64,000 bases of DNA from Dokdonella sp. (lineage in GTDB: Bacteria; Pseudomonadota; Gammaproteobacteria; Xanthomonadales; Rhodanobacteraceae). A program made the position numbers and the translations under genes. Numbering within the stretch: the stretch's first letter is position 1; each line of letters starts with the position of its first letter. Positions 26,619 through 61,889 of the stretch are shown piece by piece. The stretch spans positions 2,043,387-2,107,386 of the forward strand of contig JANQAE010000001.1 of the NCBI GenBank assembly GCA_024707225.1, given 5' to 3'. Under the pieces are notes generated by a model, which did no database searches, had not been told where the DNA came from, and saw nothing but the letters and a program-made list of their open reading frames with translations.

Positions 26619-28134
26619 TCAGACCTCGAACGTCAGCGCCAGCAGCAGCCCCTCGCCGACGTCGCGTGCGAACGAGGGCTCGACCGCGACGTACGGCTGC
26701 GCCGCCGCGGCCTGCGCGAGGATCCAGTCCGACAGCCAGGCGATCGGCGCGGCCGAGCGGAACAGCAGCATCGACTCGTAGTTCAGCAGCAGGCTGCGCG
26801 TATCGAGATTGACCGAGCCGGCCAGCGCGAGCTCGCCGTCGAAGACGATCGCCTTGGCATGCACCATGCCGGCCGTCAGGTGGATGCGCGCGCCGGCCGC
26901 GGCCAGACTGCGCAGCGCGCGGCTGCGCGCGAGATCGGCGATGCGGTGGTTGGACCGCGCCGGCACGACCAGATCGAGCGACACGCCGCGCAGGCAGGCC
27001 AGCCGCAAGGCCTGCAGCAGACCCGGATCCGGCACGAAGTACGGCGTCACCGCGACGATCCGCTCGCGTGCGCGCGCGCACGCCGCGTCGAGCAGAGCCA
27101 GTACGGTGTCCTCGGCCTGGTCGGGACCGCTCGGCACGAACAGCAGACCGGCCGTGCCGGTGTCCGCTTCGATCGCCGCGGACCGGACCTCGTCGGACCC
27201 GATCCGGCCGGCATCGGCGGCATCGGCTGCGACCGGCGCGACCGGCGCGGCCACGCCTGCGCCCGTGGCGGCGCCGATCGCGCCGGAAGCGGCCGCATCG
27301 CCCGCGGCCGGCGCATGCGCTGCCGCGTCGACCGTGCGACCGGACGGATGCGTCCGGCTGCAGTCGCCGCGCATCCAGTCGCGCTCGAACTGGCGCGCGA
27401 CGACCGCGCCGATCGCGCCGTCCAGCTCGAACGTCAGATCGGTCCACGGCGCACCGCCGCGGTCGCTCGGAGAAGTACTCCGCAGCCAGATTGCGGCCGC
27501 CCATCCAGACCCGCACGCCGTCGGCGATGGTCCATTTGCGGTGATTGCGCAGGTTGCGCGCCTGGCCCAGGCGCAGCACCCACGGCGGCTGGAACACACG
27601 CACGTCGACGCCGGCCCGGCGCAGCCGCGCGACGATGCCGCGCCGCGCCAGCAGCAGGCCGGCACCGTCGATCAGCACGCGGACGCGCACGCCGGCACGC
27701 TGCCGCTCGATCAGGGCCGCAGCGACGCGCCCGCCGTCGGCATCGGCCGCGAACACGAACGTCGCCAGGTCCAGCGTGAAGCGCGCGCTGCCGATCAAGG
27801 CGATCAGCGCCTGCATCGAGGCCGCGCCGTCGGCATGGAAGCGCATCGCGCCGGCCACAGGACCGGCCAGGCCGAAGCCGCGCGCATAGGCCGCGGTCCA
27901 GTGCTGGTCGGCCGCCGCGGACCGCGCCGGCCGCGCCGGGCCGGGGCGATGCTTGCGGCCGCCGAAGACCAGATACAGCGGCAAGGCGAGATACGGTGCG
28001 AGCAGCAGCGCGAGCACCCAGGCGATCGCGGCGACCGGAGGACGCCGGTCGCGGCGCAGACGCGTCACCATGACATAGACCAGCAACGCCCCGATCACGA
28101 CCAGCGCGTGCCAGGACACCCACGGTGTCGCCAT
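26619..28134 (-). CDS. Cardiolipin-synthase-like phospholipase D family protein, one-base frameshift
   Basis: Predicted membrane phospholipid transphosphatidylase. The N-terminus has two hydrophobic helices (PLDc_N type) and the first HKD motif NHRKWTIADG near residue 200, followed by GGRNLAAEYF in one frame. The frame then shifts by one base near 27463-27470 and continues as GGAPWTDLTFELDG to the second HKD motif VHAKAIVFDGELALAGSVN and a normal end. Both catalytic motifs are intact. The stretch between the two halves has an extra Ala/Gly/Asp-rich insert of about 50 residues, longer than usual for cardiolipin synthases. Confidence 0.8.
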
Positions 28135-39486: not shown

Positions 39487-39666
39487 CGGGTTACCTCCTG
39501 CGTATCCGCCCGCCTTCAGCATGCGGCGGCATTCGTTGTAGGGGGCCGGCATCACCGGTCCGGCGGCGCACGCGCCGCGTACATACTGCCGCCGGCCCTC
39601 CGGCGACACTCCGATCATCCCTGTCAGCGCCGCATTTCCGTTGCCGGCCGCCGTCGCTGCTCGCGG

Positions 39667-41120
39667 TCAGCGCGATGTCCGCCCGTTACGCCGCTGCGCC
39701 AGCTGCTCGCGCAGCGAACGGCGCGCCGGCCGCAGCGGCGCGCGCGACCGGGTCCATCCTGCCTGGTTGCGGGGGCCAGACCGCGCAGACGGGGCGCGAT
39801 CCATGCAAAAAGACGATACAGCGCGGGGTGCGCGTAGAGCAGCCGCCAGCCTTTCCAGGCCAGCGTCTCGCCGATCGTACGCGCTGCGCCCTGCCCCTTC
39901 AACGCGGGTGTGCCGGCCGCGGATGGCGCCTCGTGCCGCGCCGCCTCGCGCAGGCGCATCAGCATGTCCGGGATCGGGATCCGCACCGGGCAGACCTCGC
40001 CGCAGGCGCCGCACAGGCTGGAGGCGGTCGGCAGGTCGCGCGTGGAGGCCAGGCCGAGCAGGTGCGGCTCGATGATCGCACCGATCGGGCCGGGATAGGT
40101 CGTGCCGTAGGACAGGCCGCCGACGCGCGCATAGACCGGGCAGTGGTTCATGCAGGCGCCGCAGCGGATGCACTGCAGCGTCGCGCGGAAGCGCTCGTCG
40201 CGATAGGCCTGGGTGCGGCCATTGTCGAGCAGGATCAGATGGACCTCGCGCGGGCCGTCCTTCTCATCCGGCCGGCGCGGGCCGGAGATCACGTTGAGAT
40301 AGGTCGTCACCGCCTGGCCGGTCGCCGAACGCGTCAGCAGCGCGAACAGCGGCACGACGTGCTCGAGCTTCTCGACGACCTTCTCCAGGCCGGTGATCGC
40401 GATGTGCACGTCCGGCACGGTCGTGCTCATGCGGCCGTTGCCCTCGTTCTCGACCAGCACCAACGAACCGGTCTCGGCGACCAGGAAATTGACGCCGGAG
40501 ACGCCGATCGGGGTGTCGCGGAACAGATTGCGCAGCGCCTGGCGGCCGATCGCGATCAGTTCGTTGACGTCCTCGGTGTAGGGCGCGTCCGGAATCCGGT
40601 CGGCGAAGATCCGCGCCACGTCCTCCTTGGTCTTGTGGATCGCCGGCATGATGATGTGGCTGGGGCGGTCATCGTCGAGCTGCAGGATGTACTCGCCCAT
40701 GTCGGTCTCGACGCACTCGACGCCGGCCTCGGCCATGCGGTGGTTGAGCTCGATCTCCTCGCTGACCATCGACTTGCCCTTGACCATGCGCGTGGCACCG
40801 TGGCTGCGCGCGATCGACAGGAAGATCCGGTTGGCGTCCTCGGCGTTCTCGGCCCAGTGCACGCGGATACCGTTGGCGGTCAGATTGGCCTCCAGCCGTT
40901 CGAGCAGGTCCGGCAGCTGCGCCAGCGCGTGCTGACGCACGCGCTCGCCGAGGCCGCGCAGCCGCTCGAACGCCTCGGCGTCCGGGAATTGCGCGCTGCG
41001 CTTGTCCATCAGGAAGTCCATCGCGCCGCGGAAGCTGCGGCGCAGGACCGGGTCGGCCAGCACGAGGCGCGCGTTGTCCTTGAAGGCGGTCGGATCGGCG
41101 ACCGGGCGCGTCGCGCTCAT
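39667..41120 (-). CDS. lutB: L-lactate utilisation iron-sulfur protein LutB, one-base frameshift near the C-terminus
   Basis: Component of the cytoplasmic LutABC complex oxidising L-lactate to pyruvate. Two ferredoxin-type clusters are visible: CIRCGACMNHCPVY and CGACGEVCPVRIPIP. The frame stays open to 39624, but the expected ending (QAGWTRSRAPLRPARRSLREQL) is in the neighbouring frame and stops at 39667. Adding one base to the five-base G/C run at 39771-39775 joins them and gives a normal 484 residues. The start overlaps the lutC stop. Confidence 0.88.
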
Positions 41121-41810
41121 GGGCTCACCTCGTCGCGGATCAGCACGATCACCAGCTCCTTGGGTCCGTGCGCGCCATAGACCAGCAGGCGCTGGATGTC
41201 GGCGGTCTTGGAAGGACCGGTCACCAGCAGCGCATTGGTCGGCAGGCTGCCGGACCAGCCCTGCGCGTCGATCGCCGCGAACAGATCCGCAAACAGCGTG
41301 CTCGCGCGCAGCACCGCGATGTGCACCGGCGGCACCAGCGACAGCGTGCGCGGCTCGCGGCGGTCGGGCCAGACGATCAGCGTGCCGGTCTCGACGATGC
41401 CGCCGCGCGTCGTGGTGATGCCCGCGTCGATGCCGTCGAACAGCATTTCGCGGCAGGTCTCGATCGGCGCGTCGTACCAGGCCAGCCGCGCCGCATCGAT
41501 GTGCGCGGCGAGTCCGGCCGAGTGCGGTGTCGCGCCCGGCCAGCACGCGGCGCAGGCCCTTGGCGCGGACCACCCCGGCGATCGCTTCGGCCCAGTCGTC
41601 GGGACCGGTCTCGACGACCTCGGCGCGCCAGCCGCGTGCGCGTTCGGCGAACGTCGCGACGTGCGCGGCCGGATCGGTGCTCCACGCGCGGGCGCGGAAA
41701 TGGGCGGCCACGTCCGGCACCGGCGGCGGCGTCGCCGAACCGGCCGCGCGCAGCCGGCCGAAGATCGCGGCACGCGCGCGCCGGCTGGCCTCGTCGATCG
41801 GCGCGTTCAT
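41117..41810 (-). CDS. lutC: Lactate utilisation protein LutC, one-base frameshift
   Basis: Third LutABC component (LUD domain). The N-terminal half (MNAPIDEASRRARAAIF to LRRVLAGRDTAL) and the C-terminal half, with ITTTRGGIVETGTLIV and ALLVTGPSKTADIQRLLVYGAHGPKEL, are in different frames. A single extra base near 41518-41526 accounts for it. The joined product would be about 230 residues, normal for LutC. It overlaps lutA and lutB by 4 nt on each side, so the operon order is A-C-B. Confidence 0.87.
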
Positions 41811-42607
41811 CGTGCCGGCTCCGCGCCGGCCGCGAGCCGGCGCAGCAGAAAGCTCGCAATGTGTTCGCCGCGCAGCGATGCGCCGCGCTGCTCGAGCGTC
41901 AGGTTGAGATTCATCAGGCAGCCACAGTCGGCGCTGACGAATCGGTCGCAGCCGGTCGCGAGGATCGCCTCGACCTTGTCGGCGGCCATCGCCGCCGAGA
42001 TGTCCGGCTGCTTGACCGAGAACGTGCCGCCGAAGCCGCAGCATTCCGGTTCGTGGTCGTGGACCGCCAGCGTCACGCCGGGCAGGCGCGCCAGCAGGTC
42101 GCGCCCGACCGTGTGCGTGCCCATCTCGCGGCGCGCGCTGCACGAGGTGTGCAGGCACAGCGTCTCTTCGGCTCCGGCGGACGCGATCTCTTCGCCGAGC
42201 AGACCGGCGACGAACTCGGTGAACTCGACCGTGCGCGCGGCGATCGCCGCGGCCTTCGCCGAGCGCAGCGGATCGTCGGCGAACAGGCGCGGCCAGTGGT
42301 GACGGATCATGCCGCCGCACGATCCGGACGGCACGACGATCGGCCAGGGCTCCGGAAACAGGTCGAGCTGGGCTGCCGCGACTGCGCGCGCGTCATCCGG
42401 AAAGCCGCTGGTATAGGCCGGCTGTCCGCAGCAGGTCTGGCCGGCCGGAAAGCTCACGCGCACACCGAGCTGCTCGATGACTTCGACCGCGTCGAGTCCG
42501 GCCTGCGGCGCGAACAGGTCGAGCAGGCAGGTCGCGAACAGGTAGACGTCCGCCGGGGGCGCCGGGTCGGGCTGCGTCGCTGGGGCCGGGATCGTTGCCA
42601 TGTGCAT
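41807..42607 (-). CDS. lutA: L-lactate utilisation protein LutA
   Basis: A CCG-domain iron-sulfur protein of the LutABC lactate oxidase complex, like the GlpC/heterodisulfide-reductase family. The 266-residue product has two cysteine motifs, AGQTCCGQPAY and EPECCGFGGTFSV, plus SGSCGGMIRHHWP. It is intact, unlike the two genes downstream. Starts at ATG 42607; an in-frame ATG two codons later is possible. It is divergent from the GntR regulator, with an operator between them. No lactate permease gene is adjacent. Confidence 0.92.
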   Translation of the reverse strand: MHMATIPAPATQPDPAPPADVYLFATCLLDLFAPQAGLDAVEVIEQLGVRVSFPAGQTCCGQPAYTSGFPDDARAVAAAQLDLFPEPWPIVVPSGSCGGMIRHHWPRLFADDPLRSAKAAAIAARTVEFTEFVAGLLGEEIASAGAEETLCLHTSCSARREMGTHTVGRDLLARLPGVTLAVHDHEPECCGFGGTFSVKQPDISAAMAADKVEAILATGCDRFVSADCGCLMNLNLTLEQRGASLRGEHIASFLLRRLAAGAEPAR

Positions 42608-42660
42608 CCGGTGACCTTGAGTGCGCGCCGGAGTGTGCGCGCGGTCACGCCGGCCGGTAT

Positions 42661-42675
42661 ATTGGTCAGACCAAT
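42661..42675. promoter_or_regulatory. GntR/FadR-family operator between lutA and its regulator
   Basis: ATTGGTCAGACCAAT is a perfect palindrome matching the TnGTnnnACnA core bound by PdhR/LldR-type regulators. It lies 16 nt before the regulator start and 54 nt before lutA. It overlaps a TATATT sequence (42658-42663) that could be the -10 of the regulator, which fits autorepression and control of lut by lactate. Confidence 0.8.
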
Positions 42676-42690
42676 TTTGCGGATCAGGCC

Positions 42691-43398
42691 ATGTCGCGCC
42701 GCGTCGAAACGGTGGTCGACCATCTGGAGTCGGCGATCGTCCAGGGTGTCTACGCGCCGGGCACGCGCCTGCCGGGCGAGCGTGCGCTCGGCGCCGCGCT
42801 CGGCGTCTCGCGCGCGACCGTCCGCGACGCGCTGGCCGCCCTGGTCAGCCGCGGCCTGCTGCAGCGCCGCCACGGTGACGGCACCTACGTCAACGACCAG
42901 GCCGAGCGGCAGATGGCCGAAGTCTGGGTCGACATGGCCGAGCGACATCCGGCGCTGCAGGGCGACCTGATCGAATTTCGCGAGATGCTCGAGAGCCGCG
43001 CCGCCGAGCTGGCCGCGACGCGCCACGATGCGGCCGACCGCGAGCGATTGCTGGCGGCGCTCGCCGCGGTCGACGCGGCCTACAGCGGCGAGGATCGCGG
43101 CGCGCAGATCCGCAGCGACGTGGCGTTCCATCGCGCGATCGCCGAGGCGACGCACAATCCGCTGTTCGCATACCTGATGAATTCGCTGCTGCGCCTGCTG
43201 CACGAGCACGTGCAGCTCAGCCTGGCCGGCGTCGCCCCGCATTCGGACACGGCGCGCCAGCTGCGCATGCAGCACCGCGCGCTGGCCGAGGCGATCCTCG
43301 CGCGCGACGCCGAGCGCGCCCGTCGCCAGGCCGGCGGCCACATCGATTTCGTCGGCGTGCGGCTCAACGCGATGCGCCGGCCGCCGGCGCGGCGCTGA
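42691..43398 (+). CDS. GntR-family (FadR/LldR subgroup) transcriptional regulator
   Basis: A 235-residue regulator with an N-terminal winged helix (GERALGAALGVSRATVRDALAAL, residues 30-55) and a C-terminal all-helical FCD ligand domain with metal-site Asp and His residues (DVAFHRAIAEATHNPLF). It is divergent from lutACB with a matching operator between, so it most likely represses lactate oxidation until lactate binds (inference from LldR and LutR). The ATG at 42691 was chosen because upstream in-frame codons cross the operator. Confidence 0.9.
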   Translation: MSRRVETVVDHLESAIVQGVYAPGTRLPGERALGAALGVSRATVRDALAALVSRGLLQRRHGDGTYVNDQAERQMAEVWVDMAERHPALQGDLIEFREMLESRAAELAATRHDAADRERLLAALAAVDAAYSGEDRGAQIRSDVAFHRAIAEATHNPLFAYLMNSLLRLLHEHVQLSLAGVAPHSDTARQLRMQHRALAEAILARDAERARRQAGGHIDFVGVRLNAMRRPPARR

Positions 43399-43462
43399 TG
43401 GCGGCTCGCGGCGGCCGGCGCGTGCGGCAAGGCGCGCGATGGAACGGCGTGTACGCCGCCGA

Positions 43463-45187
43463 TCAGGCCGGCAGCGCAGCCGCAGCGTCGGGCCGCAGAT
43501 AGCGCGCGCGCTTGCGCGGCGTCAGGCGGTCCAGGTCGAGCACGATCAGGCCGTCGACGCTGTTGCGGAACGCCGGATCGACGCCGAACGCGAGAAAGCG
43601 CGCGCCGCCCGGCTCGCACAGCTCGGTGTACTGCCGGTACAGGATCGGCAGCCGCGCGCCGGCCGCATCGAGCCGCGCGCGCAGCAGCGCCATCGCCTGC
43701 CCGGCATCGCAGTCGCCGAACGACGGCGCGTCGCCGGCGTAGCGGAACGGATGATGCGCGCGCACCAGACCGCCGGCGTCGCCGAAATAGCGCGTGTAGT
43801 ACGCGACGATCTGCTCGCGCGCCGCCGGCGGCAGCTCGGCGCTGATCGAGACCGGGCCGTGCAGGTGGCGCACGTGCGGATGCGTGCGCAGCCAGGCGCC
43901 GATGCCCTGCCACAGCCAGTCGAGGCTGCGCGTGTTGCGGTAGCGCGGCTGCACGAAGCTGCGGCCGAGCTCGGCGCTGCATTCGAGCAACGGTCGCAGC
44001 CGCCCGTCGAGGTCGAACAGGCTGTGCACATAGAGGCCCGCGCGGCCGCGCTCGGCCAGCACGCGCGCGCAGTCGGCGATCCGGTAGGCGCCGGCGACCT
44101 CGCCGGCCGCGCCGTCCCAGACCACGATGTGGTCGTACCAGCTGTCGTAGACGTCGGTGTCGAGCCGGCGGCCGGTGCCTTCGCCGACGCTGCGGAACGT
44201 CAGCTCGCGCAGGCGCGCGATCTCGCGCAGCAGCGGCGAATCGCTGAGCAGGCGGCCGGCGTGGATGCGCAGGCCCTCGCCGTTCTCGGCGATCAGCGCC
44301 AGCCGCTCCAGGTCCTTGCGGATCGCCGCCGGAGCCGGCCGATGCGCGAGCGGCGCCTGCGCTGCCGACCAGCGATCGCCGCGGCGGCCGATCGCGTAGA
44401 CGGCGCGGCGCACCTCGCGCGAGACGCGGCGCCGGTCGGCGACGCCTTGCATGACCTCGCCGATCGGCCGCGGCGCGCCGACGCGGATCACCAGCCGGCT
44501 CTGCTGCCGGGCGAACATCTCGCGCGGCAGCAGGCCGGTGCCGAGCGGCCGGAACAGCGCCGACACGCCGTAGAACAGCGCCGAGTTGCGCCCTTCGATG
44601 CGCACCGGCACGACCGGCGCGGCGGCCTGCTCGGCGAAGCGCAGAAAGCCGTGCCGCCAGGCCGCGTCGCGCACGCCGATCGGCGTCAGCCGCGACACCT
44701 CGCCGGCCGGAAACACGATCACCGCCTGCTCGGCGCCGAGCGCCTGGTCGACCTGGCGCAGGCTGTCGGCGCCGGCGCGGCCGCCGAACACGCGCAGCGG
44801 AATAAGCAGGTCCGACAGCCCCTCGAACGCGGCCAGGAAATCGTTGGCGAGGATGCGCACGTCGCGACGCACGCTGCCGACGAAGGCCAGCAGTGCCAGC
44901 GCATCGAGCGCGCCCATCGGATGATTGGCGACGATCACGACGCGGCCGGTCTCGGGGATGCGCTCGCGCTCGACCTGATCGACCAGGAAGCGGCAATCGA
45001 GCCGCTCCAGCGCGGCCTCGACGAACGCGAACCCGCGCAGATGCGCATGGTCGCGCACGAAGGCGTCGATGTCGTCGATGCGCGCGATCCGGGCGAGCGA
45101 TCGGATCAGCTGGCGCGAGAACGACGCACGGCGACCGCTGAACCATTGCGGGAAGCGCGCCTCGATCCTGCCTTCCAGATCGAGCAT
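43463..45187 (-). CDS. olsF: Bifunctional ornithine-lipid synthase, OlsF-like (acyltransferase + GNAT)
   Basis: A 574-residue two-domain protein. The N-terminal half is a PlsC/OlsA-type O-acyltransferase with NHPMGALDALALLAF near residue 88 and FPAGEVSRLTP. The C-terminal half is an OlsB-like N-acyltransferase with LRELTFRSVGEGTGRR, YDSWYDHIVVWD and a GGLVRAHHPFRY segment. In Serratia OlsF the C-terminal domain N-acylates ornithine and the N-terminal domain adds the second acyl chain, giving a phosphorus-free membrane lipid. It is divergent from btaA-btaB-plcP. A haemolysin-like acyltransferase of other specificity is the alternative. Confidence 0.82.
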   Translation of the reverse strand: MLDLEGRIEARFPQWFSGRRASFSRQLIRSLARIARIDDIDAFVRDHAHLRGFAFVEAALERLDCRFLVDQVERERIPETGRVVIVANHPMGALDALALLAFVGSVRRDVRILANDFLAAFEGLSDLLIPLRVFGGRAGADSLRQVDQALGAEQAVIVFPAGEVSRLTPIGVRDAAWRHGFLRFAEQAAAPVVPVRIEGRNSALFYGVSALFRPLGTGLLPREMFARQQSRLVIRVGAPRPIGEVMQGVADRRRVSREVRRAVYAIGRRGDRWSAAQAPLAHRPAPAAIRKDLERLALIAENGEGLRIHAGRLLSDSPLLREIARLRELTFRSVGEGTGRRLDTDVYDSWYDHIVVWDGAAGEVAGAYRIADCARVLAERGRAGLYVHSLFDLDGRLRPLLECSAELGRSFVQPRYRNTRSLDWLWQGIGAWLRTHPHVRHLHGPVSISAELPPAAREQIVAYYTRYFGDAGGLVRAHHPFRYAGDAPSFGDCDAGQAMALLRARLDAAGARLPILYRQYTELCEPGGARFLAFGVDPAFRNSVDGLIVLDLDRLTPRKRARYLRPDAAAALPA

Positions 45188-45322
45188 GGATACGGTCTCC
45201 TCGTCGCCCTGAGTGCGCGCACGCTAGGTCCGCCTCGTTGCAGCCACGTGACGGCGGTCATCACGCGCGTGTCATCTGCGCCGGCCACGATGGCGGCGAA
45301 CGATCGGACCGGACTCACCGGA

Positions 45323-46543
45323 ATGCCCGCCATCCAGCCCGCCCACCGCACCGCGACGCGGCCGAGCCTGCGCGATCGCGTCGACCAGCGGATCTTTCAC
45401 GCGATCTGGTCGCGCAGCCTGGTCTACAACACCTGCTGGGAAGACCCCGCCGTCGACCGCGTCGCGCTCGGCATCGGCGACGACGACCATGTCCTGGTCA
45501 TCACCAGCGCCGGCTGCAATGCGCTGGACTATGCGCTGGCCGGTCCGCGCCGCATCGACTGCGTCGATGCCAATCCGCGCCAGAACGCCCTGCTCGAACT
45601 GAAGCTGGTCGGCATCGCCGCGCTCGACTTCGAGGACTTCTATGCGATCTTCGGAGAAGGCCACCATCCGGACTTCGCGCGGCTGTACCGGACCCGGCTG
45701 CGCGAGCGGCTGACGCCGTTCGCGCGCGAGTGGTGGGACCGCCACACGCAGTGGTTCTCCAGTGCGCGCGGCAGCTTCTATTTCCACGGCCTGTCCGGTC
45801 TGGTCGCGCGCGGCGTGCGCGCCTGGTTCCGCGCGCAGCCGCGGCTGCGCGTGGCGATGTTCGACCTGCTCGCGGCCGGCGACCTCGACAGCCAGCGCCG
45901 CATCTACGACAGACAGGTCGCGCCGCTGCTGTGGAACCGCGCGGTCAACTGGACGATCTCGCGGCAGCTGGTCATGAACCTGCTCGGCGTGCCGCATCCG
46001 CAGAGGCGCCTGGTGCAGGCCGAGCATGCCGACGGCGTCTCGGGCTTCATCCGCGCCGCGCTCGAGTACGTATTCCGCGAACTGCCGCTGGCCGACAACT
46101 ATTTCTATCGCGTCTACCTCACCGGCCGCTATGCGCCGGACTGCTGCCCGGAATATCTCAAGCGCGAGAATTTCCTGCGCCTCAAGGACGGTCTCGCCGA
46201 GTCGATCCGCCTGCACACGACGACGGTCACCGCATTCCTGCACGGCGGCGACGCACCGATCTCGCGCTTCGTGCTGCTCGACCACATGGACTGGATGGGC
46301 TCCTACCACCCGGCCGCGCTCGACGAGGAATGGCAGGCCATCCTGACGCGCGCCGCGCCGCATGCGCGCATCCTGCTGCGCAGCGCGCAGACGCAGCCGG
46401 TCTGGCTCGACCAGGTGCGCCTCGCCGACGGCGCGACGCTGCGCCAGCGTCTGCGTTTCGATTCCGCCCTGGCCGCCGCGCTGCAGCCGCGCGATCGCGT
46501 GCACACCTATCCCGGCCTGGTGATCGCCGATGCGCCGGCTTGA
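45323..46543 (+). CDS. btaA: S-adenosylmethionine:diacylglycerol 3-amino-3-carboxypropyltransferase (BtaA)
   Basis: First step of betaine-lipid (DGTS) synthesis: transfers the aminocarboxypropyl group of SAM to diacylglycerol. The 406-residue DUF3419 protein has VYNTCWEDPAVDR near residue 35, the SAM-binding region VLVITSAGCNALDYAL and CVDANPRQNALLELK, and near the end LLDHMDWMG with a typical GARILLRSA-like segment. ATG at 45323 is preferred; an ATG at 45290 in the same frame is possible. It overlaps btaB by 14 nt. Confidence 0.87.
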   Translation: MPAIQPAHRTATRPSLRDRVDQRIFHAIWSRSLVYNTCWEDPAVDRVALGIGDDDHVLVITSAGCNALDYALAGPRRIDCVDANPRQNALLELKLVGIAALDFEDFYAIFGEGHHPDFARLYRTRLRERLTPFAREWWDRHTQWFSSARGSFYFHGLSGLVARGVRAWFRAQPRLRVAMFDLLAAGDLDSQRRIYDRQVAPLLWNRAVNWTISRQLVMNLLGVPHPQRRLVQAEHADGVSGFIRAALEYVFRELPLADNYFYRVYLTGRYAPDCCPEYLKRENFLRLKDGLAESIRLHTTTVTAFLHGGDAPISRFVLLDHMDWMGSYHPAALDEEWQAILTRAAPHARILLRSAQTQPVWLDQVRLADGATLRQRLRFDSALAAALQPRDRVHTYPGLVIADAPA

Positions 46544-47261
46544 GGCGCTGCGCGCCGACTTCACCGTTCTGCGCGCGATGACGCGCGGCATGCCGGCCGG
46601 CGCCAGCGCGGCGGCGCGGCTGTCGGCGTTCTATGCGCCGCAGGCCGAGCATTACGACCGCTTCCGCGAGCGCCTGCTGCACGGACGACAGCAACTGATC
46701 GACGCGATCGCGCTGCCGCGCGACGCGCACGTCGTCGACCTCGGCGGCGGCACCGGCCGCAACCTCGAACACTTCGGCGCGCGCGCCGCCGGCATCGCCC
46801 GCTACGAGGTCGTCGATCTGTGCGCGCCGCTGCTCGAGCGCGCGCGGGCACGCGCGGCGCGCCACCCGCAACTGCGCGCGGTCGAGGCCGACGCGACGCA
46901 ATGGCGCCCGGACCGTCCGGTCGACGTCGTGATCCTGTCCTATGCGCTGACGATGATGCCCGACTGGCGTGCCGCGATCGGCTCGGCGATCGCGATGCTC
47001 GCCTCCGGCGGCACGCTGGCCGTGGTCGACTTCTACGTATCGGCCGGCCGCCCGCTCGCCGGCTGCGTGCGCCACGGCTGGACGACACGGCGCTTCTGGC
47101 CGGCCTGGTTCGGCCACGACGGCGTACGCCTGGACCCTGAGCATCTGCCGACGCTGTGCAGCGCACTGCCCGACCACGTACGCGTCGAATCACGCGGCGC
47201 GGTGCCGTATCTGCCGCTGCTGCGCGTGCCGTACTACCGTTTCCTGGGGACCAAGCCGTGA
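46530..47261 (+). CDS. btaB: Diacylglycerylhomoserine N-methyltransferase (BtaB-like)
   Basis: Class I SAM methyltransferase expected to trimethylate the homoserine nitrogen to finish DGTS. The 243-residue protein has the SAM motif VVDLGGGTGRNLEHF near residue 70, the VDLCAPLLERAR acidic loop and SYALTMMPDW (motif IV region). Role rests on its 14-nt overlap with btaA and family resemblance; other small-molecule methyltransferases share these motifs. Its stop overlaps the plcP GTG start. Confidence 0.85.
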   Translation: MRRLEALRADFTVLRAMTRGMPAGASAAARLSAFYAPQAEHYDRFRERLLHGRQQLIDAIALPRDAHVVDLGGGTGRNLEHFGARAAGIARYEVVDLCAPLLERARARAARHPQLRAVEADATQWRPDRPVDVVILSYALTMMPDWRAAIGSAIAMLASGGTLAVVDFYVSAGRPLAGCVRHGWTTRRFWPAWFGHDGVRLDPEHLPTLCSALPDHVRVESRGAVPYLPLLRVPYYRFLGTKP

Positions 47262-48082
47262 ACATCCATCGGGTCCGCTCGGTCTTCATCTCGGACGTGC
47301 ACCTGGGCACGCGCGCCTGCCAGGCCGAGCGTCTGCTCACGTTCCTGCGCGCGTATCCGGCCGAGTATCTGTACCTGGTCGGCGACATCGTCGACTTCTG
47401 GGCGATGCGCCGAGACGTGCGCTGGACGCCGGCGCAGAACACCGTCGTGCAGAAGATCCTGCGTCGCGCGCGCCACGGCGAGCAGGTGGTGTTCATCCCC
47501 GGCAACCACGACGAGGCATTGCGCGAATACACCGGCATCCGCTTCGGCGACATCCGGCTCGAGCGCGAATGGGTCCACACCACCGCCGAGGGCAAGCGCT
47601 ATCTGGTGCTGCACGGCGACGAGTTCGACCAGGTCACGCGCTACCACCGCTGGCTCGCCGTGCTCGGCGACGTCGGCTACACCTGGCTCGTGCGCGCCAA
47701 CGGCTGGCTGTCGTGGCTGCGCCGCAAGCTCGGCATCGCCGGCTACTGGTCGCTGGCCGGCTACGCCAAGCGCAAGGTCAAGGTCGCGGTCAGCTTCGTC
47801 GGCGACTTCGAAGGCTCGGTCGCGCGCGCGGTGCGCGAGCGCGGTCTGGACGGCGTGATCTGCGGACACATCCACGTCGCGGCGATGCACGACATCGAGG
47901 GCATCCGCTACGTCAACTGCGGCGACTGGGTCGACAGCTGCACGGCGATCGTCGAACACCACGACGGGCAGCTCGAGCTGATCCACTGGAGCGCGGAGGA
48001 GGCCGACACGCACACGGCCGAAGCGTTCGCCGAGGACATGCTGCTGCGCCCGCGCGCGCAGACGCGCAGGATCGCGGCCTGA
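47258..48082 (+). CDS. plcP: Metallophosphoesterase, PlcP-like phospholipase C
   Basis: Calcineurin-like phosphoesterase resembling Sinorhizobium PlcP, which cleaves phospholipids to diacylglycerol during phosphate starvation. Metal-site motifs: SVFISDVHLGTRACQ, YLVGDIVDFW, IPGNHDEAL, VLHGDEFD and ICGHIHVAAMHDIEGI, with the PlcP-type ending YVNCGDWVDSCTAIVEH. It is distinct from the true LpxH at 61161. It overlaps btaB, so a diacylglycerol-making enzyme is coupled to diacylglycerol-consuming ones. A UDP-diacylglucosamine hydrolase role is the alternative. GC-rich hairpin at 48109-48136 after the stop, without a T-run. Confidence 0.82.
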   Translation: MNIHRVRSVFISDVHLGTRACQAERLLTFLRAYPAEYLYLVGDIVDFWAMRRDVRWTPAQNTVVQKILRRARHGEQVVFIPGNHDEALREYTGIRFGDIRLEREWVHTTAEGKRYLVLHGDEFDQVTRYHRWLAVLGDVGYTWLVRANGWLSWLRRKLGIAGYWSLAGYAKRKVKVAVSFVGDFEGSVARAVRERGLDGVICGHIHVAAMHDIEGIRYVNCGDWVDSCTAIVEHHDGQLELIHWSAEEADTHTAEAFAEDMLLRPRAQTRRIAA

Positions 48083-48166: not shown

Positions 48167-48835
48167 TCAGGCCGTGCCCGGTACGTCGGGCTGGTTCTCC
48201 GGGCGTGCCGCGTCGAACGCCGGCAGTGCCAGGCAGGCCTGTTCGATCCGCGCGATCGTCGGATACGGCGTCAGATCGACGCGGAAGCGGTGCGCATTGT
48301 AGACCTGAGGGATCAGGCAGGCGTCGGCCAGACCCGGCTGGTCGCCTTCGCAGTAGCGGCCGGTCGACGGGTGCTCGGCGAGCATTTCCTCGAATGCGCG
48401 CAGGCCTTCGCGTATCCAGTGCTGCGTCCAGCGCTGGCGCTGCTCGGCATCGACCGCGAGTTCGCGCTCCAGATACTGCATGACGCGCAGATTGTTCAGC
48501 GGATGCACGTCGCAGCCGATCAGCTGCGCCAGCGCGCGCACACGCGCGCGGTCGCGGATCATCGCCGGCAGCAGCTTGATCGCCCCGTCGTAGGCCTCGT
48601 CGAGATATTCGATGATCGCCATCGACTGACGCACGACGCGGCGGCCGTCGATCAGGACCGGCACCAGCTCCTGCGGATTGAGCTCGTGATAGCCCGGGTC
48701 GTGCTGTTCGCCGCCGTTGTTGACCAGATGCACCGGCACCTGGTCGTACGGCAGCATCTTGAGATTCAGCGCGATGCGCACGCGATAGGCCGCGCTCGAT
48801 CGCCAGTAGCTGTAGAGGGTCAAACGCTCGCTCAT
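48167..48835 (-). CDS. maiA: Maleylacetoacetate isomerase (zeta-class GST)
   Basis: Isomerises maleylacetoacetate to fumarylacetoacetate in tyrosine breakdown, using glutathione. The 222-residue protein has the zeta signature SSAAYRVRIALNLK near residue 13, then ELNPQELVPVLIDG and QSMAIIEYLDE of the thioredoxin fold, and an all-helical C-terminal domain. It is last in the hpd-hmgA-fahA-maiA run, 179 nt after fahA. Confidence 0.93.
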   Translation of the reverse strand: MSERLTLYSYWRSSAAYRVRIALNLKMLPYDQVPVHLVNNGGEQHDPGYHELNPQELVPVLIDGRRVVRQSMAIIEYLDEAYDGAIKLLPAMIRDRARVRALAQLIGCDVHPLNNLRVMQYLERELAVDAEQRQRWTQHWIREGLRAFEEMLAEHPSTGRYCEGDQPGLADACLIPQVYNAHRFRVDLTPYPTIARIEQACLALPAFDAARPENQPDVPGTA

Positions 48836-49014
48836 GCCGGTGCCTCCCCGCGCCGTTCCTGAACGGTCGGCGCCGATTATCTCAGCGAATCGCCGGGATG
48901 TTGAGCGGGGGCGCCGCCCGCGCGCCGCGCAGCCTCGTGGCCGCCATTGCGCGGCCCTGACCCCGCCGCAATGGATCCGCGCGGCGCCTGCCGCGCTCCG
49001 CGTACCCTGCGGGA

Positions 49015-50010
49015 TCAGTCCTGTTGTGGCCGGTAGCGCTCGATGCGCTGCTCGATCGCACCGAAGAGGCTGGCGCCCTGTGCATCGGTCATCTCGATGC
49101 GGACCGTATCGCCGAACGCCAGGAACGGCGTCGCCGGCTTGCCGTCGCGCAGCGTCTCGACCGTGCGCTGCTCGGCCAGGCAGGACGCGCCCTTGGCGGT
49201 GTCCTCGTTGGCGATCGTGCCCGAACCGACCAGGGTACCGGCGGTCAGCGGGCGCGTCTTGGCCGCGTGTGCGATCAGCTCGGCAAAGCTGAACTGCATG
49301 TCGACACCGGCTTCGGCCTCGCCGAACCAGCGGCCGTTGATCCAGGTGCGCATCGGCAGGTGCAGCTTGCTGCCCTGCCAGGCGTCGCCGAGCTCGTCGG
49401 GCGTGACCAGCACCGGCGACAGTGCCGAGCGCGGCTTGCTCTGCAGGAAGCCGAAGCCCTTGGCCAGCTCCGGCGGGATCAGCCCGCGCAGCGAGACGTC
49501 GTTGACGAGGCCGACCAGCTGGATGTGGCGTGCCGCCTCGGCCGGCGTGACGCCCATCGGCACGTCGTCGGTCACGACCAGGACCTCGGCTTCCAGATCG
49601 ATGCCGTAGTCCTCGCTGGCGACCAGGACCGGATCGCGCGGTCCGAGGAAGCCGGCGCTGGTCGCCTGGTACATCAACGGATCGGTATAGAAGCTGGCCG
49701 GCACCTCGGCGCCACGCGCGCGCCGGACGCGCTCGACGTGCGGCAGGTAGGCGCTGCCGTCGACGAACTCGTAGGCACGCGGCAGCGGCGCGGCGAGCGC
49801 GTCGAGGTCGAGGTCGAACGCATCGGCGGCGCGGCCGTCCGAGAGCGCCTCGTACAGCGCGTTGAGCCGCGGCGCGACAGCTTCCCAGCCGTCGAGCGCG
49901 GCCTGCAGCGTAGCGGCGATGCCGGTCGCGCGCACGGCGCGGCTCAGAGCGCGGTCGACGACGATCAGCGTGCCGTCGCGGCCGCCTTCCTTGAGACTTG
50001 CAAGCTTCAT
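49015..50010 (-). CDS. fahA: Fumarylacetoacetate hydrolase family protein
   Basis: Splits fumarylacetoacetate into fumarate and acetoacetate, the last step of tyrosine degradation. The 331-residue protein is of the shorter bacterial type. It has AYEFVDGSAYLPH, the metal-site region ASEDYGIDLEAEVLVV, LVGLVNDVSLRGLIP and the C-terminal GTLVGSGTIANED loop. ATG at 50010 follows hmgA after 35 nt; the longer open frame upstream shadows hmgA. Position between hmgA and maiA supports the assignment. Confidence 0.93.
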   Translation of the reverse strand: MKLASLKEGGRDGTLIVVDRALSRAVRATGIAATLQAALDGWEAVAPRLNALYEALSDGRAADAFDLDLDALAAPLPRAYEFVDGSAYLPHVERVRRARGAEVPASFYTDPLMYQATSAGFLGPRDPVLVASEDYGIDLEAEVLVVTDDVPMGVTPAEAARHIQLVGLVNDVSLRGLIPPELAKGFGFLQSKPRSALSPVLVTPDELGDAWQGSKLHLPMRTWINGRWFGEAEAGVDMQFSFAELIAHAAKTRPLTAGTLVGSGTIANEDTAKGASCLAEQRTVETLRDGKPATPFLAFGDTVRIEMTDAQGASLFGAIEQRIERYRPQQD

Positions 50011-50045
50011 CTGGATCGCTTCCCCGTTGAGTGGTCGGCCGGCGC

Positions 50046-51353
50046 TCAGCGCCGGCTCGGGTCGAAATGCTTGGCCAGGCCCTGCCAGCACGCGTAGTAG
50101 TCGCGCTGCAGCTGCGGCGATTCGAGCGCCTGCCGGGTCGGGTGGATCACCGCACGGGTCTCGAACATGAAGGCCATGGTATCGACGATGTGGTCGGGCC
50201 TGCTCGTGTCGGCGGCAGAGGCCTTCTCGAAGCTGGTCGCATCGGGTCCGTGGCCGCTCATGCAGTTGTGCAGGCTGCTGCCACCGGGCACGAAACCGCC
50301 GGCCTTGGCGTCGTAGGCGCCGTGCACAAGGCCCATGAATTCGCTGGCGACGTTGCGATGGAACCACGGCGGACGGAACGTGTCCTCGGCGCACAGCCAG
50401 CGTGGCGGAAAGATCACGAAATCCAGATTCGCGGTGCCCGCCGTGTCGCTCGGCGAGGTCAGCACCGTGAATATCGAGGGGTCGGGATGGTCGTAGCTGA
50501 TCGACCCGATCGTGTTGAAGCGGCGCAGGTCGTAGCGGTACGGCGCGTGATTGCCGTGCCAGGCGACCACGTCGAGCGGCGAATGGCCGATCGCGGCGCG
50601 CCACAAATTGCCCTGGAACTTGGCGATCAGCTCGAAGTCGCCCTCCACGTCCTCGTAGGCCGCATGCGGCGTCTCGAAGTCGCGCGGATTGGCCAGGCCG
50701 TTGGAGCCGATCGGCCCCAGATCGGGCAGGCGCAGCGCCGCGCCGAAATTCTCGGCGACGTAGCCGCGCGCCTCGCCGTCCGGCAGGTCGACGCGGAAGC
50801 GGATGCCGCGCGGAATCACCGCGATCTGCTGCGGCTCGACCTCGACGACGCCGAGTTCGGTCGCGATGCGGAGCCGTCCGCGCTCGGGCACGATCAGCAG
50901 CTCGCCGTCGGCGCTGTAGAAATAGCGGCCCTGCATCGGGCGGTTGGCCGCATAGAGATAGATGCCGATGCCGGTCTGCGAGGCGGCGCCGCCGTTGCCG
51001 GCGACCGTGACCAGCCCGTCGACGAAGTCGGTCGGTGCGGTCGGCAGCGGCAGCGGATCCCAGCGCAGCTGGTTCGGCGTCGCCGGTGCCTCGTCGAAGC
51101 GGTTGTGGAAACGCGGATGCGCCAGCGCCTCGAACGGGCGGTGCATCGACGCGGGCCGGATCCGGTACAGCCAGCTGCGCCGGTTGGCGTGGCGCGGCGC
51201 GGTGAACGCGGTACCGGAGATCTGTTCGGCATACAGCCCGTAGGCGGCGCGCTGCGGAGAATTGCGCCCCTCGGGCAATGCACCCGGCAGGGCTTCGCTC
51301 GCGAACTCGTTGCCGAAGCCGGTCTGGTAGCCGCTGGATCGAGAAGAAGACAT
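50046..51353 (-). CDS. hmgA: Homogentisate 1,2-dioxygenase
   Basis: Iron(II) dioxygenase opening the homogentisate ring to maleylacetoacetate. The 435-residue protein begins [20 protein letters not shown], a hallmark start. It contains the iron ligands in [15 protein letters not shown] (His and Glu) and the His of [15 protein letters not shown]. It lies 99 nt after hpd on the same strand. ATG at 51353 was chosen because the extra N-terminal residues upstream are not conserved. Confidence 0.96.
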
Positions 51354-51452
51354 GCCGACACCTCGGAGCGCCGCGACCGCGGCGCACTGCCGTTGAACGG
51401 CGGGCCGCACGTCAGCGCCGGCCCGCCTCCTGGATCGTCCGCCGTGGAGCGG

Positions 51453-52556
51453 TCAGAGCACGCCGCGGCGCATCTGGTCGCGCTCGATGCTCTCGAACAG
51501 CGCCTGGAAGTTGCCGTTGCCGAAACCTTCGTTGCCCTTGCGCTGGATGATCTCGAAGAAGATCGGACCGATGCAGTTCTGCGTGAAGATCTGCAGCAGC
51601 AGCTTCTTCTTGGTCTCCGGGTCGGCGTCGATCAGCAGCTTGTTGCGCTGCATGCGCGTCAGATCCTCGCCGTGGCCGGGGATGCGCTGATCGACGACCT
51701 CGTAGTAGGTCTCCGGCGTGTCGAGGAAGGCCACGCCGCGCGCGCGCATCGCCTCGACCGTGCCGTAGATGTCGTCGGTGAAGCAGGCGATGTGCTGGAT
51801 GCCCTCGCCCTTGTACTCGTCCAGATACTCGTTGATCTGCGACTTGGCGTCGGAGGACTCGTTGAGCGGGATGCGGACCATGCCGTCCGGCGCGGTCATC
51901 GCCTTGGACACCAGGCCGGTCTTGGCGCCCTTGATGTCGAAGTAGCGGATCTCGCGGAAGTTGAACAGCCGCTCGTAGTAGTCCGCCCAGCGCTCCATGT
52001 TGCCGAAGTAGAGGTTGTGGGTCAGATGGTCGATGAAGGTCAGACCGAAACCCTTCGGATGGCGGTCCACGCCCGGCAGCCATTCGAAGTCGGCGTCGTA
52101 GACCGAGCCGCCGGCGCCGTAGCGGTCGACCAGATACAGCATGCAGTCGCCGATGCCCTTGATGACCGGCACGTCGACGGCGCCGGTATCGGCCTTGTGC
52201 GTGAGCTTTTCGGCACCGTTGGCGAGCGTGGCGGCGAGCACCTCGTCGGCCGGCTTGCGGAAGCGGATCGCGAAGCCGCAGGCGCTCGGACCGTGCTGGG
52301 CCGCGAAGTCGGCCGCGAACGAATCGGGCTCCTCGTTGACGAGGAAGTTGCAGTCGCCCTGGCGGTACAGCGTCACCTTGCGGCTACGGTGACGGGCGAC
52401 CGCGGTGAAGCCGAGATTGCCGAACAGCTCGTGCAGCAGCTTCGGATCGGGCGCGGCGAATTCGACGAACTCGAAGCCGTCCACGCCCATCGGGTTCTCG
52501 AACGTGGTGACCTCGATGCCGGTATTGGGTACGGTCGGATGGGGCTGGGCGTTCAT
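51453..52556 (-). CDS. hpd: 4-hydroxyphenylpyruvate dioxygenase
   Basis: Converts 4-hydroxyphenylpyruvate to homogentisate. The 367-residue protein has two vicinal-oxygen-chelate halves, with the iron ligands visible in the second: His in FIDHLTHN, His in GIQHIACF and Glu in GPIFFEIIQRKG. The first gene of the tyrosine operon, preceded by a near-consensus promoter with a palindrome in its spacer and divergent from a MarR regulator. Confidence 0.96.
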   Translation of the reverse strand: MNAQPHPTVPNTGIEVTTFENPMGVDGFEFVEFAAPDPKLLHELFGNLGFTAVARHRSRKVTLYRQGDCNFLVNEEPDSFAADFAAQHGPSACGFAIRFRKPADEVLAATLANGAEKLTHKADTGAVDVPVIKGIGDCMLYLVDRYGAGGSVYDADFEWLPGVDRHPKGFGLTFIDHLTHNLYFGNMERWADYYERLFNFREIRYFDIKGAKTGLVSKAMTAPDGMVRIPLNESSDAKSQINEYLDEYKGEGIQHIACFTDDIYGTVEAMRARGVAFLDTPETYYEVVDQRIPGHGEDLTRMQRNKLLIDADPETKKKLLLQIFTQNCIGPIFFEIIQRKGNEGFGNGNFQALFESIERDQMRRGVL

Positions 52557-60976: not shown

Positions 60977-61160
60977 CAGCAGCGCCACGATTGGTTCGGC
61001 GAGCGGTCCGGTTTCGACCGCTCGCCGGATACCGCATTCTTCCGTACGATCGACGCGTGAGCAGACGTGCAAGGCGACGCGGCGTTGCGCTTGCATCTCG
61101 CCAACCCGGCGCGCCGCGATGGCGCGTGCCGACCAACGGAGCGAGGCTCGAGAGGTCACA

Positions 61161-61889
61161 ATGGCCACCGTGTTCATTTCCGATCTGCACCTGGACGCGG
61201 CGCGCCCCGGCATCATCGACCTGTTCGCCGACTTCATCGAGAGCCAGGCAAAAGCCGCTCGTGCGCTCTACATCCTCGGCGATCTCTTCGAGGCCTGGAT
61301 CGGCGACGACGATGACGACGAAACCGGGGCTCGGGTCGCGACGGTCCTCGGTGGATTGAGGCAGTCCGGCGTTCCTTGCTTCTTCATCGCCGGCAATCGC
61401 GACTTCCTGCTCGGCGACGTCTGGGCCCGGCGCGCCGGCGTGACGCTGCTGGACGACCCGTCGCTGATCGACGTCGAAGGCGTACCGACATTGCTGATGC
61501 ACGGCGACACGCTCTGCACCGACGATGCGCGCTACCAGGCGATCAGAACGATGCTGCGCGCGCCGGGCTGGCAGCGCAGCTTTCTCGACAGGCCGCTCGC
61601 CGAACGTCGTGCGTTCGCCGCGGAGGCGCGCGCGGAAAGCCGGCGATACACGACCGATCCCGCGAACAACGCGATCATGGACGTCAATCAAGAACAGGTC
61701 CGAGCGACCATGCGACGCTTCGGAGCGCGCAGGCTCATACACGGGCATACGCATCGCCCGGGCATTCATGACGTCGACCTGGCCGGAGAACCGGCGCAGA
61801 GAATCGTGCTCGGCGACTGGTACGAGCAAGGCAGCGTTCTCAGGATCGACGCCGGCGCGTTTGCGCTCGAAGCGCTTCGGACGCCCTGA
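61161..61889 (+). CDS. lpxH: UDP-2,3-diacylglucosamine diphosphatase
   Basis: Peripheral membrane metallophosphoesterase that cuts UDP-2,3-diacylglucosamine to lipid X in lipid A synthesis, supplying a substrate for LpxB. The 242-residue protein has VFISDLHLDAARPG, ILGDLFEAWIGDDD, IAGNRDFLLG, LMHGDTLCTDD and HGHTHRPGIHDV, the full LpxH metal set including the Arg after Asn in GNRD. ATG at 61161. It faces a hairpin and the convergent secreted-protein genes. Confidence 0.95.
   Translation: MATVFISDLHLDAARPGIIDLFADFIESQAKAARALYILGDLFEAWIGDDDDDETGARVATVLGGLRQSGVPCFFIAGNRDFLLGDVWARRAGVTLLDDPSLIDVEGVPTLLMHGDTLCTDDARYQAIRTMLRAPGWQRSFLDRPLAERRAFAAEARAESRRYTTDPANNAIMDVNQEQVRATMRRFGARRLIHGHTHRPGIHDVDLAGEPAQRIVLGDWYEQGSVLRIDAGAFALEALRTP

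Follow-up and report, generated by a model that had tools for sequence, protein, structure and literature searches.

Do genes for two phosphorus-free membrane lipids that lie side by side in a Dokdonella sp. genome form one phosphate-starvation locus, and did they arrive there together? We examined this question in a window of 64,000 nucleotides (nt), the whole stretch of DNA analysed (assembly GCA_024707225.1, contig JANQAE010000001.1), in which olsF, btaA, btaB and plcP are all present at 43463-48082, where the original prediction had placed them. The locus very probably serves phosphate-starvation membrane remodelling through two phosphorus-free lipid routes, to judge from its gene families, its conservation and its control region. 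The enzymes are of known kinds; their arrangement is new and turned up in no more than a small group of relatives. The features, with S-adenosylmethionine abbreviated as SAM, are the following:

43463..45187, minus strand: olsF, predicted bifunctional ornithine lipid synthase (NF052615; PF19576 and PF13444)
45188..45322, no strand: control region separating the divergent olsF and btaA (135 nt if btaA starts at ATG 45323, 102 nt if it starts at the alternative ATG 45290)
45237..45254, minus strand: PhoB-box-like site (7-4-7 repeat) directed at olsF, then 9 nt and CTAGCGT (-10-like)
45258..45275, plus strand: weaker PhoB-box-like site directed at btaA, then 9 nt and CCACGAT
45323..46543, plus strand: btaA, predicted SAM:diacylglycerol 3-amino-3-carboxypropyltransferase (PF11899; alternative upstream ATG 45290)
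46530..47261, plus strand: btaB, predicted SAM-dependent N-methyltransferase (methyltransferase families; position 3' of btaA)
47258..48082, plus strand: plcP, predicted metallophosphoesterase of the phospholipase C type (PF00149; non-LpxH; similarity to Sinorhizobium meliloti)

The locus had been described as a compact cassette, and the four genes are indeed adjacent; olsF lies on the opposite strand, back to back with btaA-btaB-plcP, so that there are two divergent units. Within the second unit the reported mutual overlaps were confirmed, the btaA and btaB frames sharing 14 nt (46530-46543) and the btaB and plcP frames 4 nt (GTGA, 47258-47261), with the plcP start corrected from 47156 to GTG 47258. 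For btaA, ATG 45323 is probably the start, since ATG 45290 overlaps the inferred -10 element, as judged by eye.

Family models and comparisons back all four gene assignments, and the functional assignment of the locus is well supported. OlsF matches the NCBIfam equivalog NF052615 (662.1 bits, cut-off 620, residues 1-564 of 574) and fuses in one chain an acyltransferase (PF19576, residues 25-266) and a GNAT-type N-acyltransferase (PF13444, residues 326-427). BtaA scores 379.7 bits against PF11899/DUF3419 (cut-off 28.2), covering profile positions 6-383 of 385, and its predicted structure is a Rossmann-type SAM fold (mean predicted local distance difference test score, pLDDT, of 90); a sequence search of the PDB retrieved no BtaA relatives, and Foldseek no fold match, at E <= 0.001. 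BtaB matches class I SAM methyltransferase families, with no NCBIfam model above its cut-off, and shares 36% identity, across 184 residues, with the S. meliloti methyltransferase encoded right after btaA, which does not bear out the possibility that it groups with unrelated methyltransferases. We also surveyed 80 named BtaA loci, the 80 best of the 570 confirmed, some of which end too early for neighbours to be visible: 79 have a gene of the btaB type within about 150 nt after btaA, and the contig of the remaining one, L065, stops shortly after btaA. PlcP is a calcineurin-like phosphoesterase (PF00149).

BtaA would attach the 3-amino-3-carboxypropyl group of SAM to diacylglycerol, and three rounds of methylation by BtaB would then yield the betaine lipid diacylglyceryltrimethylhomoserine (DGTS). 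In the window's organism, PlcP would split phospholipids into diacylglycerol and a phospho-head group, and the released diacylglycerol would be the substrate of BtaA and, in turn, the source of DGTS. The overlapping frames suggest coupled translation of btaA-btaB-plcP, by which release and use of diacylglycerol would rise together, so the logic of coupled production and use put forward in the original prediction is supported. OlsF would make ornithine lipid from ornithine and acyl-ACP (acyl carrier protein), independently of diacylglycerol. At low phosphate, phosphorylated PhoB would bind the olsF-btaA intergenic region and turn on both arms; this predicted Pho control adds to the diacylglycerol logic and was absent from the earlier claims. 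While the genes, frames and families are observed directly, as are the conserved linkage and the box-like sites, we infer the reactions, the PhoB control and the lipids made from characterised relatives: the sections consulted of PMC4796936 and PMC8528852 offer precedents for the PlcP pathway, and the function of BtaA and BtaB is as cited in the former.

On sequence comparison, chance can be excluded as the source of the four-gene block, since the same block recurs in relatives with 66-92% protein identity. OlsF (over cut-off), BtaA and PlcP are all-or-none in the genus: of the 10 genomes analysed, seven have all three proteins and the other three lack them all. Six of the seven carriers have the four genes contiguous and in the same divergent order; the assembly of the seventh, G008, splits the set, with olsF-btaA at one contig end and btaB-plcP at another, in a consistent order. 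The flanks vary: the window and G005 have lactate-utilisation (lut) and maiA genes, four others (G001, G004, G006 and G007) a POT transporter and recQ, and G008 (contigs C185 and C13; L025 and L212) has recQ, with the block in the orientation opposite to that in the other members. POT transporters occur near both sites and are only 32-34% identical, and we rejected the idea of one travelling gene. Outside these genomes, isolate PS02065 (L037) carries the block with no match to the flanking genes of the genus, and Chiayiivirga flava (L098) has olsF beside btaAB and plcP, rearranged.

The original prediction considered the set notable for a gammaproteobacterium, which was overstated: OlsF over cut-off is present in 167 of 233 genomes of the family, btaAB recurs widely in beta- and gammaproteobacteria, and plcP-btaAB has been published (PMC4796936). 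Each of btaAB, plcP and olsF is unremarkable here; the three together are unusual. BtaA occurs over cut-off in 28 of the 233 family genomes, in 4 of 26 genera (G600 and G601 being fragments), and is a neighbour of OlsF in seven of the 28, all in the window's genus. Among the 21 others, 18 have OlsF over cut-off, on a different contig from BtaA in 17, which in fragmented assemblies is no proof of distance; in G614, the remaining one, about 420 kb separate the two. The OlsF match of G600 scores lower and its place is unlisted, and G451 and G613 lack a good one. A class-wide draw of 369 genomes gave PF11899 over cut-off in 29 and OlsF in 21, with both in eight if OlsF matches of at least 392 bits are counted (PF11899 reaching only 202-221 bits in two of these); of the eight, the window's own genome alone has them on one contig. 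In the 80 named loci, plcP is adjacent in 19 (downstream of btaB in 13, divergent from btaA in 6) and a full-length OlsF is near in four (L034, L035, L037 and L098), of which L034 and L035 are G007 and G006 and add no new cases; partial OlsF-like matches (34-42%) in L088, L107 and L112 were left out of the count. No olsF-btaA linkage was found in the other surveyed genomes with both genes, beyond the seven of the genus, PS02065 and C. flava.

The suggestion that the cassette had been acquired together was not supported by phylogenetic analysis, as the closest relatives of BtaAB, PlcP and OlsF differ. In the OlsF tree, the window's group, PS02065 and Chiayiivirga form one clade (9 rows, support 100/99), separate from OlsF of other genera of the family (15 rows selected out of 30, 100/98). 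In the window's group, BtaA and BtaB join those of the Dokdonella fugitiva group (concatenated tree, 12 rows, 96/93), and those of Chiayiivirga group with Aquimonas. PlcP identity to the window's protein is 76-92% within its own group, 60-67% for PlcP encoded downstream of btaB in other loci, 49% for S. meliloti, 45-48% for the D. fugitiva group and 41% for Chiayiivirga; in the rooted tree, PlcP of the type shared by D. fugitiva and Chiayiivirga stands in a clade of its own (7 rows, 100/100). Placement differs as well: in the window's group plcP lies downstream of btaB, and the D. fugitiva group has it divergent from btaA instead. Rows with implausible titles ('Bordetella parapertussis', 'Klebsiella pneumoniae') were kept as sequences and their names disbelieved. 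Approximately unbiased (AU) tests, for which groups were named after earlier trees had been viewed, rejected a single PlcP clade of the window's group, the D. fugitiva group and Chiayiivirga (log-likelihood 141.7 lower, p 1.7e-55) and the joining of Chiayiivirga BtaA and BtaB with the window's group (52.5 lower, p 1.6e-6). On these tests, a single transfer of the entire cassette was rejected as the simple account. Since they reject a common PlcP and a common BtaAB history, the parts did not all arrive as one piece, although today they travel as a unit inside the genus. The locus seems to be a mosaic, with btaAB akin to that of D. fugitiva and with plcP and olsF whose lineages differ from those found in its relatives, and the arrangement was seemingly assembled repeatedly.

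We lean, if only slightly, towards the interpretation that selection built phosphate-starvation lipid islands more than once, combining a btaAB core with plcP of two lineages and placing one olsF lineage on two btaAB backbones, and that in the window's genus one bidirectional, PhoB-controlled region drives both lipid routes in a block kept while relocating. Neutral adjacency is a serious contender with a somewhat lower chance of being right: two phosphate-controlled units would have landed side by side once, in one lineage, in line with the facts that all nine linked olsF copies seen fall in the one OlsF clade and that, in the 18 family genomes mentioned above, the two genes lie on different contigs (17) or about 420 kb apart (one). 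Against a neutral landing stand the retention of the block while flanks and orientation vary within the genus and the case of Chiayiivirga, in which the same OlsF type lies next to btaAB of another backbone and plcP of another type, so that olsF would have met btaAB in two settings.

In the intergenic region we identified two sites resembling PhoB boxes, by means of a 7-4-7 box matrix built from 10 pstS and 10 phoB promoters of the genus. The olsF-directed site (45254-45237) ranks first among 127,966 window positions with both the pstS+phoB matrix and the pstS-only matrix, its 9-nt spacing to CTAGCGT matches that in pstS promoters, and it ranks first in six of seven relatives' loci and third in the seventh. 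For the btaA-directed site, the equivalent position ranks 2-12 in six of these seven loci. More widely, the stretch before btaA, which includes sites directed at divergent plcP or olsF, contains the best site of the locus in 29 of 78 named loci and one of the five best in 57 (L041 and L045 were omitted for too little sequence before btaA). On the same 78 loci, 60 column-permuted matrices gave means of 2.6 (best) and 11.8 (top-five), with maxima of 9 and 24, and the complemented and reversed matrices gave 2 and 19 each. Genes for OlsF remote from btaA also bear box-like sites, many of them 45-70 nt upstream of the start, so Pho control of olsF is probably older than the olsF-btaA linkage; the proposal that linkage to btaA is the source of olsF phosphate control is, for the same reason, unsupported. 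The second-best PhoB-box-like site of the window, at 28070 on the plus strand within long overlapping frames, is possibly due to chance. On these comparisons, a single phosphate switch probably drives both arms.

Several points weigh against this interpretation. We placed the training boxes by eye, using CTGCAAC and CGTAA as anchors, when the intergenic motif was already known, and with the phoB-only matrix the olsF-directed site drops to rank 22. The btaA-directed site is weak in the window (rank 407 of 127,966) and is outscored by a different site in the closest relative, G005 (L024), and Chiayiivirga olsF has only a rank-7 site upstream. As to the enzymes, the margin of OlsF over its cut-off is modest, and BtaB has no curated model, its function being drawn from position and weak similarity. 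It could thus be argued that the genes are rightly assigned and that there is no phosphate switch, the lipids being constitutive or made under another stress (acid, salt, temperature) and the boxes incidental. The weak btaA-directed site would fit this, as would the report that one of two Vibrio OlsF enzymes responds to salinity and not to phosphate (PMC12186959, in the part consulted). We nevertheless consider it improbable, given the top-ranking olsF-directed box in the window and in most relatives' loci, the enrichment of box-like sites upstream of btaA over matrix controls and their presence at olsF genes far from btaA.

The identity of PlcP could be judged against an internal control, since a genuine LpxH is encoded in the same window (61119-61889, plus strand; 303.5 and 296.4 bits against two LpxH models). 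PlcP scores 58.6 (cut-off 134) and 57.7 (cut-off 190.35) bits against these models and is 28% identical to the window's LpxH, so its identification as an LpxH was rejected. It is 49% identical, over 96% of its length, to the PlcP-type protein of the S. meliloti record, which we take to be the characterised PlcP (SMc00171), and the grouping with LpxH-like enzymes that could have undone the assignment was not found. That PlcP has no role in feeding BtaA, acting on another substrate (LpxH-like or other) and being merely co-transcribed, is very improbable: it would accord with the weak LpxH matches (58 bits) and with the annotation of most plasmid relatives as UDP-2,3-diacylglucosamine diphosphatase, and it is opposed by the separate full-score LpxH, the similarity to the S. 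meliloti protein, the confinement of PlcP within the genus to members with btaA and the adjacency of plcP in 19 of the 80 BtaA loci. Those plasmid PlcP-like proteins were found in many genera (H10-H34), including on three Pseudomonas aeruginosa plasmids, and the label that most of them carry is perhaps a general misannotation. On the plasmid of Mitsuaria sp. 7 (L216), a PlcP-like gene directly precedes the polyphosphate kinase gene ppk1, with a Ppx/GppA-type gene past ppk1 on the other strand.

Around the locus, olsF is adjoined by lactate-utilisation genes (39624-43398) for a CCG-domain LutA, LUD-domain proteins and LutB, with a GntR/FCD regulator whose best NCBIfam match, LldR, is below cut-off. 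On the other side, plcP is adjoined by tyrosine/homogentisate catabolism genes on the minus strand (48167-52556), for maleylacetoacetate isomerase, HgmA, HPPD and, presumably, a fumarylacetoacetase-like protein. G+C content per kilobase is 69-74% over 43000-47999, with its peak in olsF, and 66-73% in the surroundings, and no tRNA genes were found in the 64-kb window; this evidence gives no clear sign either way of a recent island.

The locus thus offers, in little space, two phosphorus-saving routes, one that depends on diacylglycerol (DGTS) and one that does not (ornithine lipid), apparently under one shared control region. It allows one to ask whether the two routes are redundant, sequential or meant for different membranes, and its mosaic ancestry makes the evolution of gene order under joint regulation testable.

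Among the titles and abstract openings listed for our searches of the open-licence PubMed Central literature, we found no description of an olsF-btaAB-plcP locus, and, among the literature matches listed for the named taxa, nothing on betaine lipids in these genera. Of nine papers that contain at least two of the terms PlcP, OlsF and btaA, only PMC6298996 contains all three, and in the part consulted it describes no such joint locus. The nearest known systems each share a part of it. In S. meliloti (CP090106.1), a btaA-type frame is directly followed by a class I methyltransferase, as in the window (30% identity for BtaA, 36% over 184 residues for BtaB), whereas the PlcP-type gene is about 390 kb from btaAB. 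In Vibrio cholerae, OlsF (VC0489) is required for ornithine lipid at phosphate limitation in a PhoB-dependent manner (PMC12186959), but betaine-lipid genes beside VC0489 are unmentioned in the sections consulted of that source. The P. aeruginosa PlcP-Agt operon (PA3219-PA3218) also combines a gammaproteobacterial PlcP, a predicted Pho box and the conversion of diacylglycerol to a phosphorus-free lipid, although Agt glycolipid synthesis replaces DGTS; ornithine lipids are reported there too, with no shared locus described in the sections consulted (PMC8528852). A further counterpart is the plcP-btaA-btaB 'type 1' cluster of Phaeobacter sp. MED193, an alphaproteobacterium, in which PlcP and two DGTS genes lie together, Pho boxes are predicted in plcP clusters and the lipid results agree with the cluster (PMC4796936, as far as consulted). 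There, btaAB is downstream of plcP and the genomic-context section does not name olsF, whereas in the window plcP is last and overlapping and olsF stands divergent at the front. If our interpretation is true, this group of Rhodanobacteraceae joins the organisms with PlcP-DGTS remodelling, the pairing described in Phaeobacter (PMC4796936).

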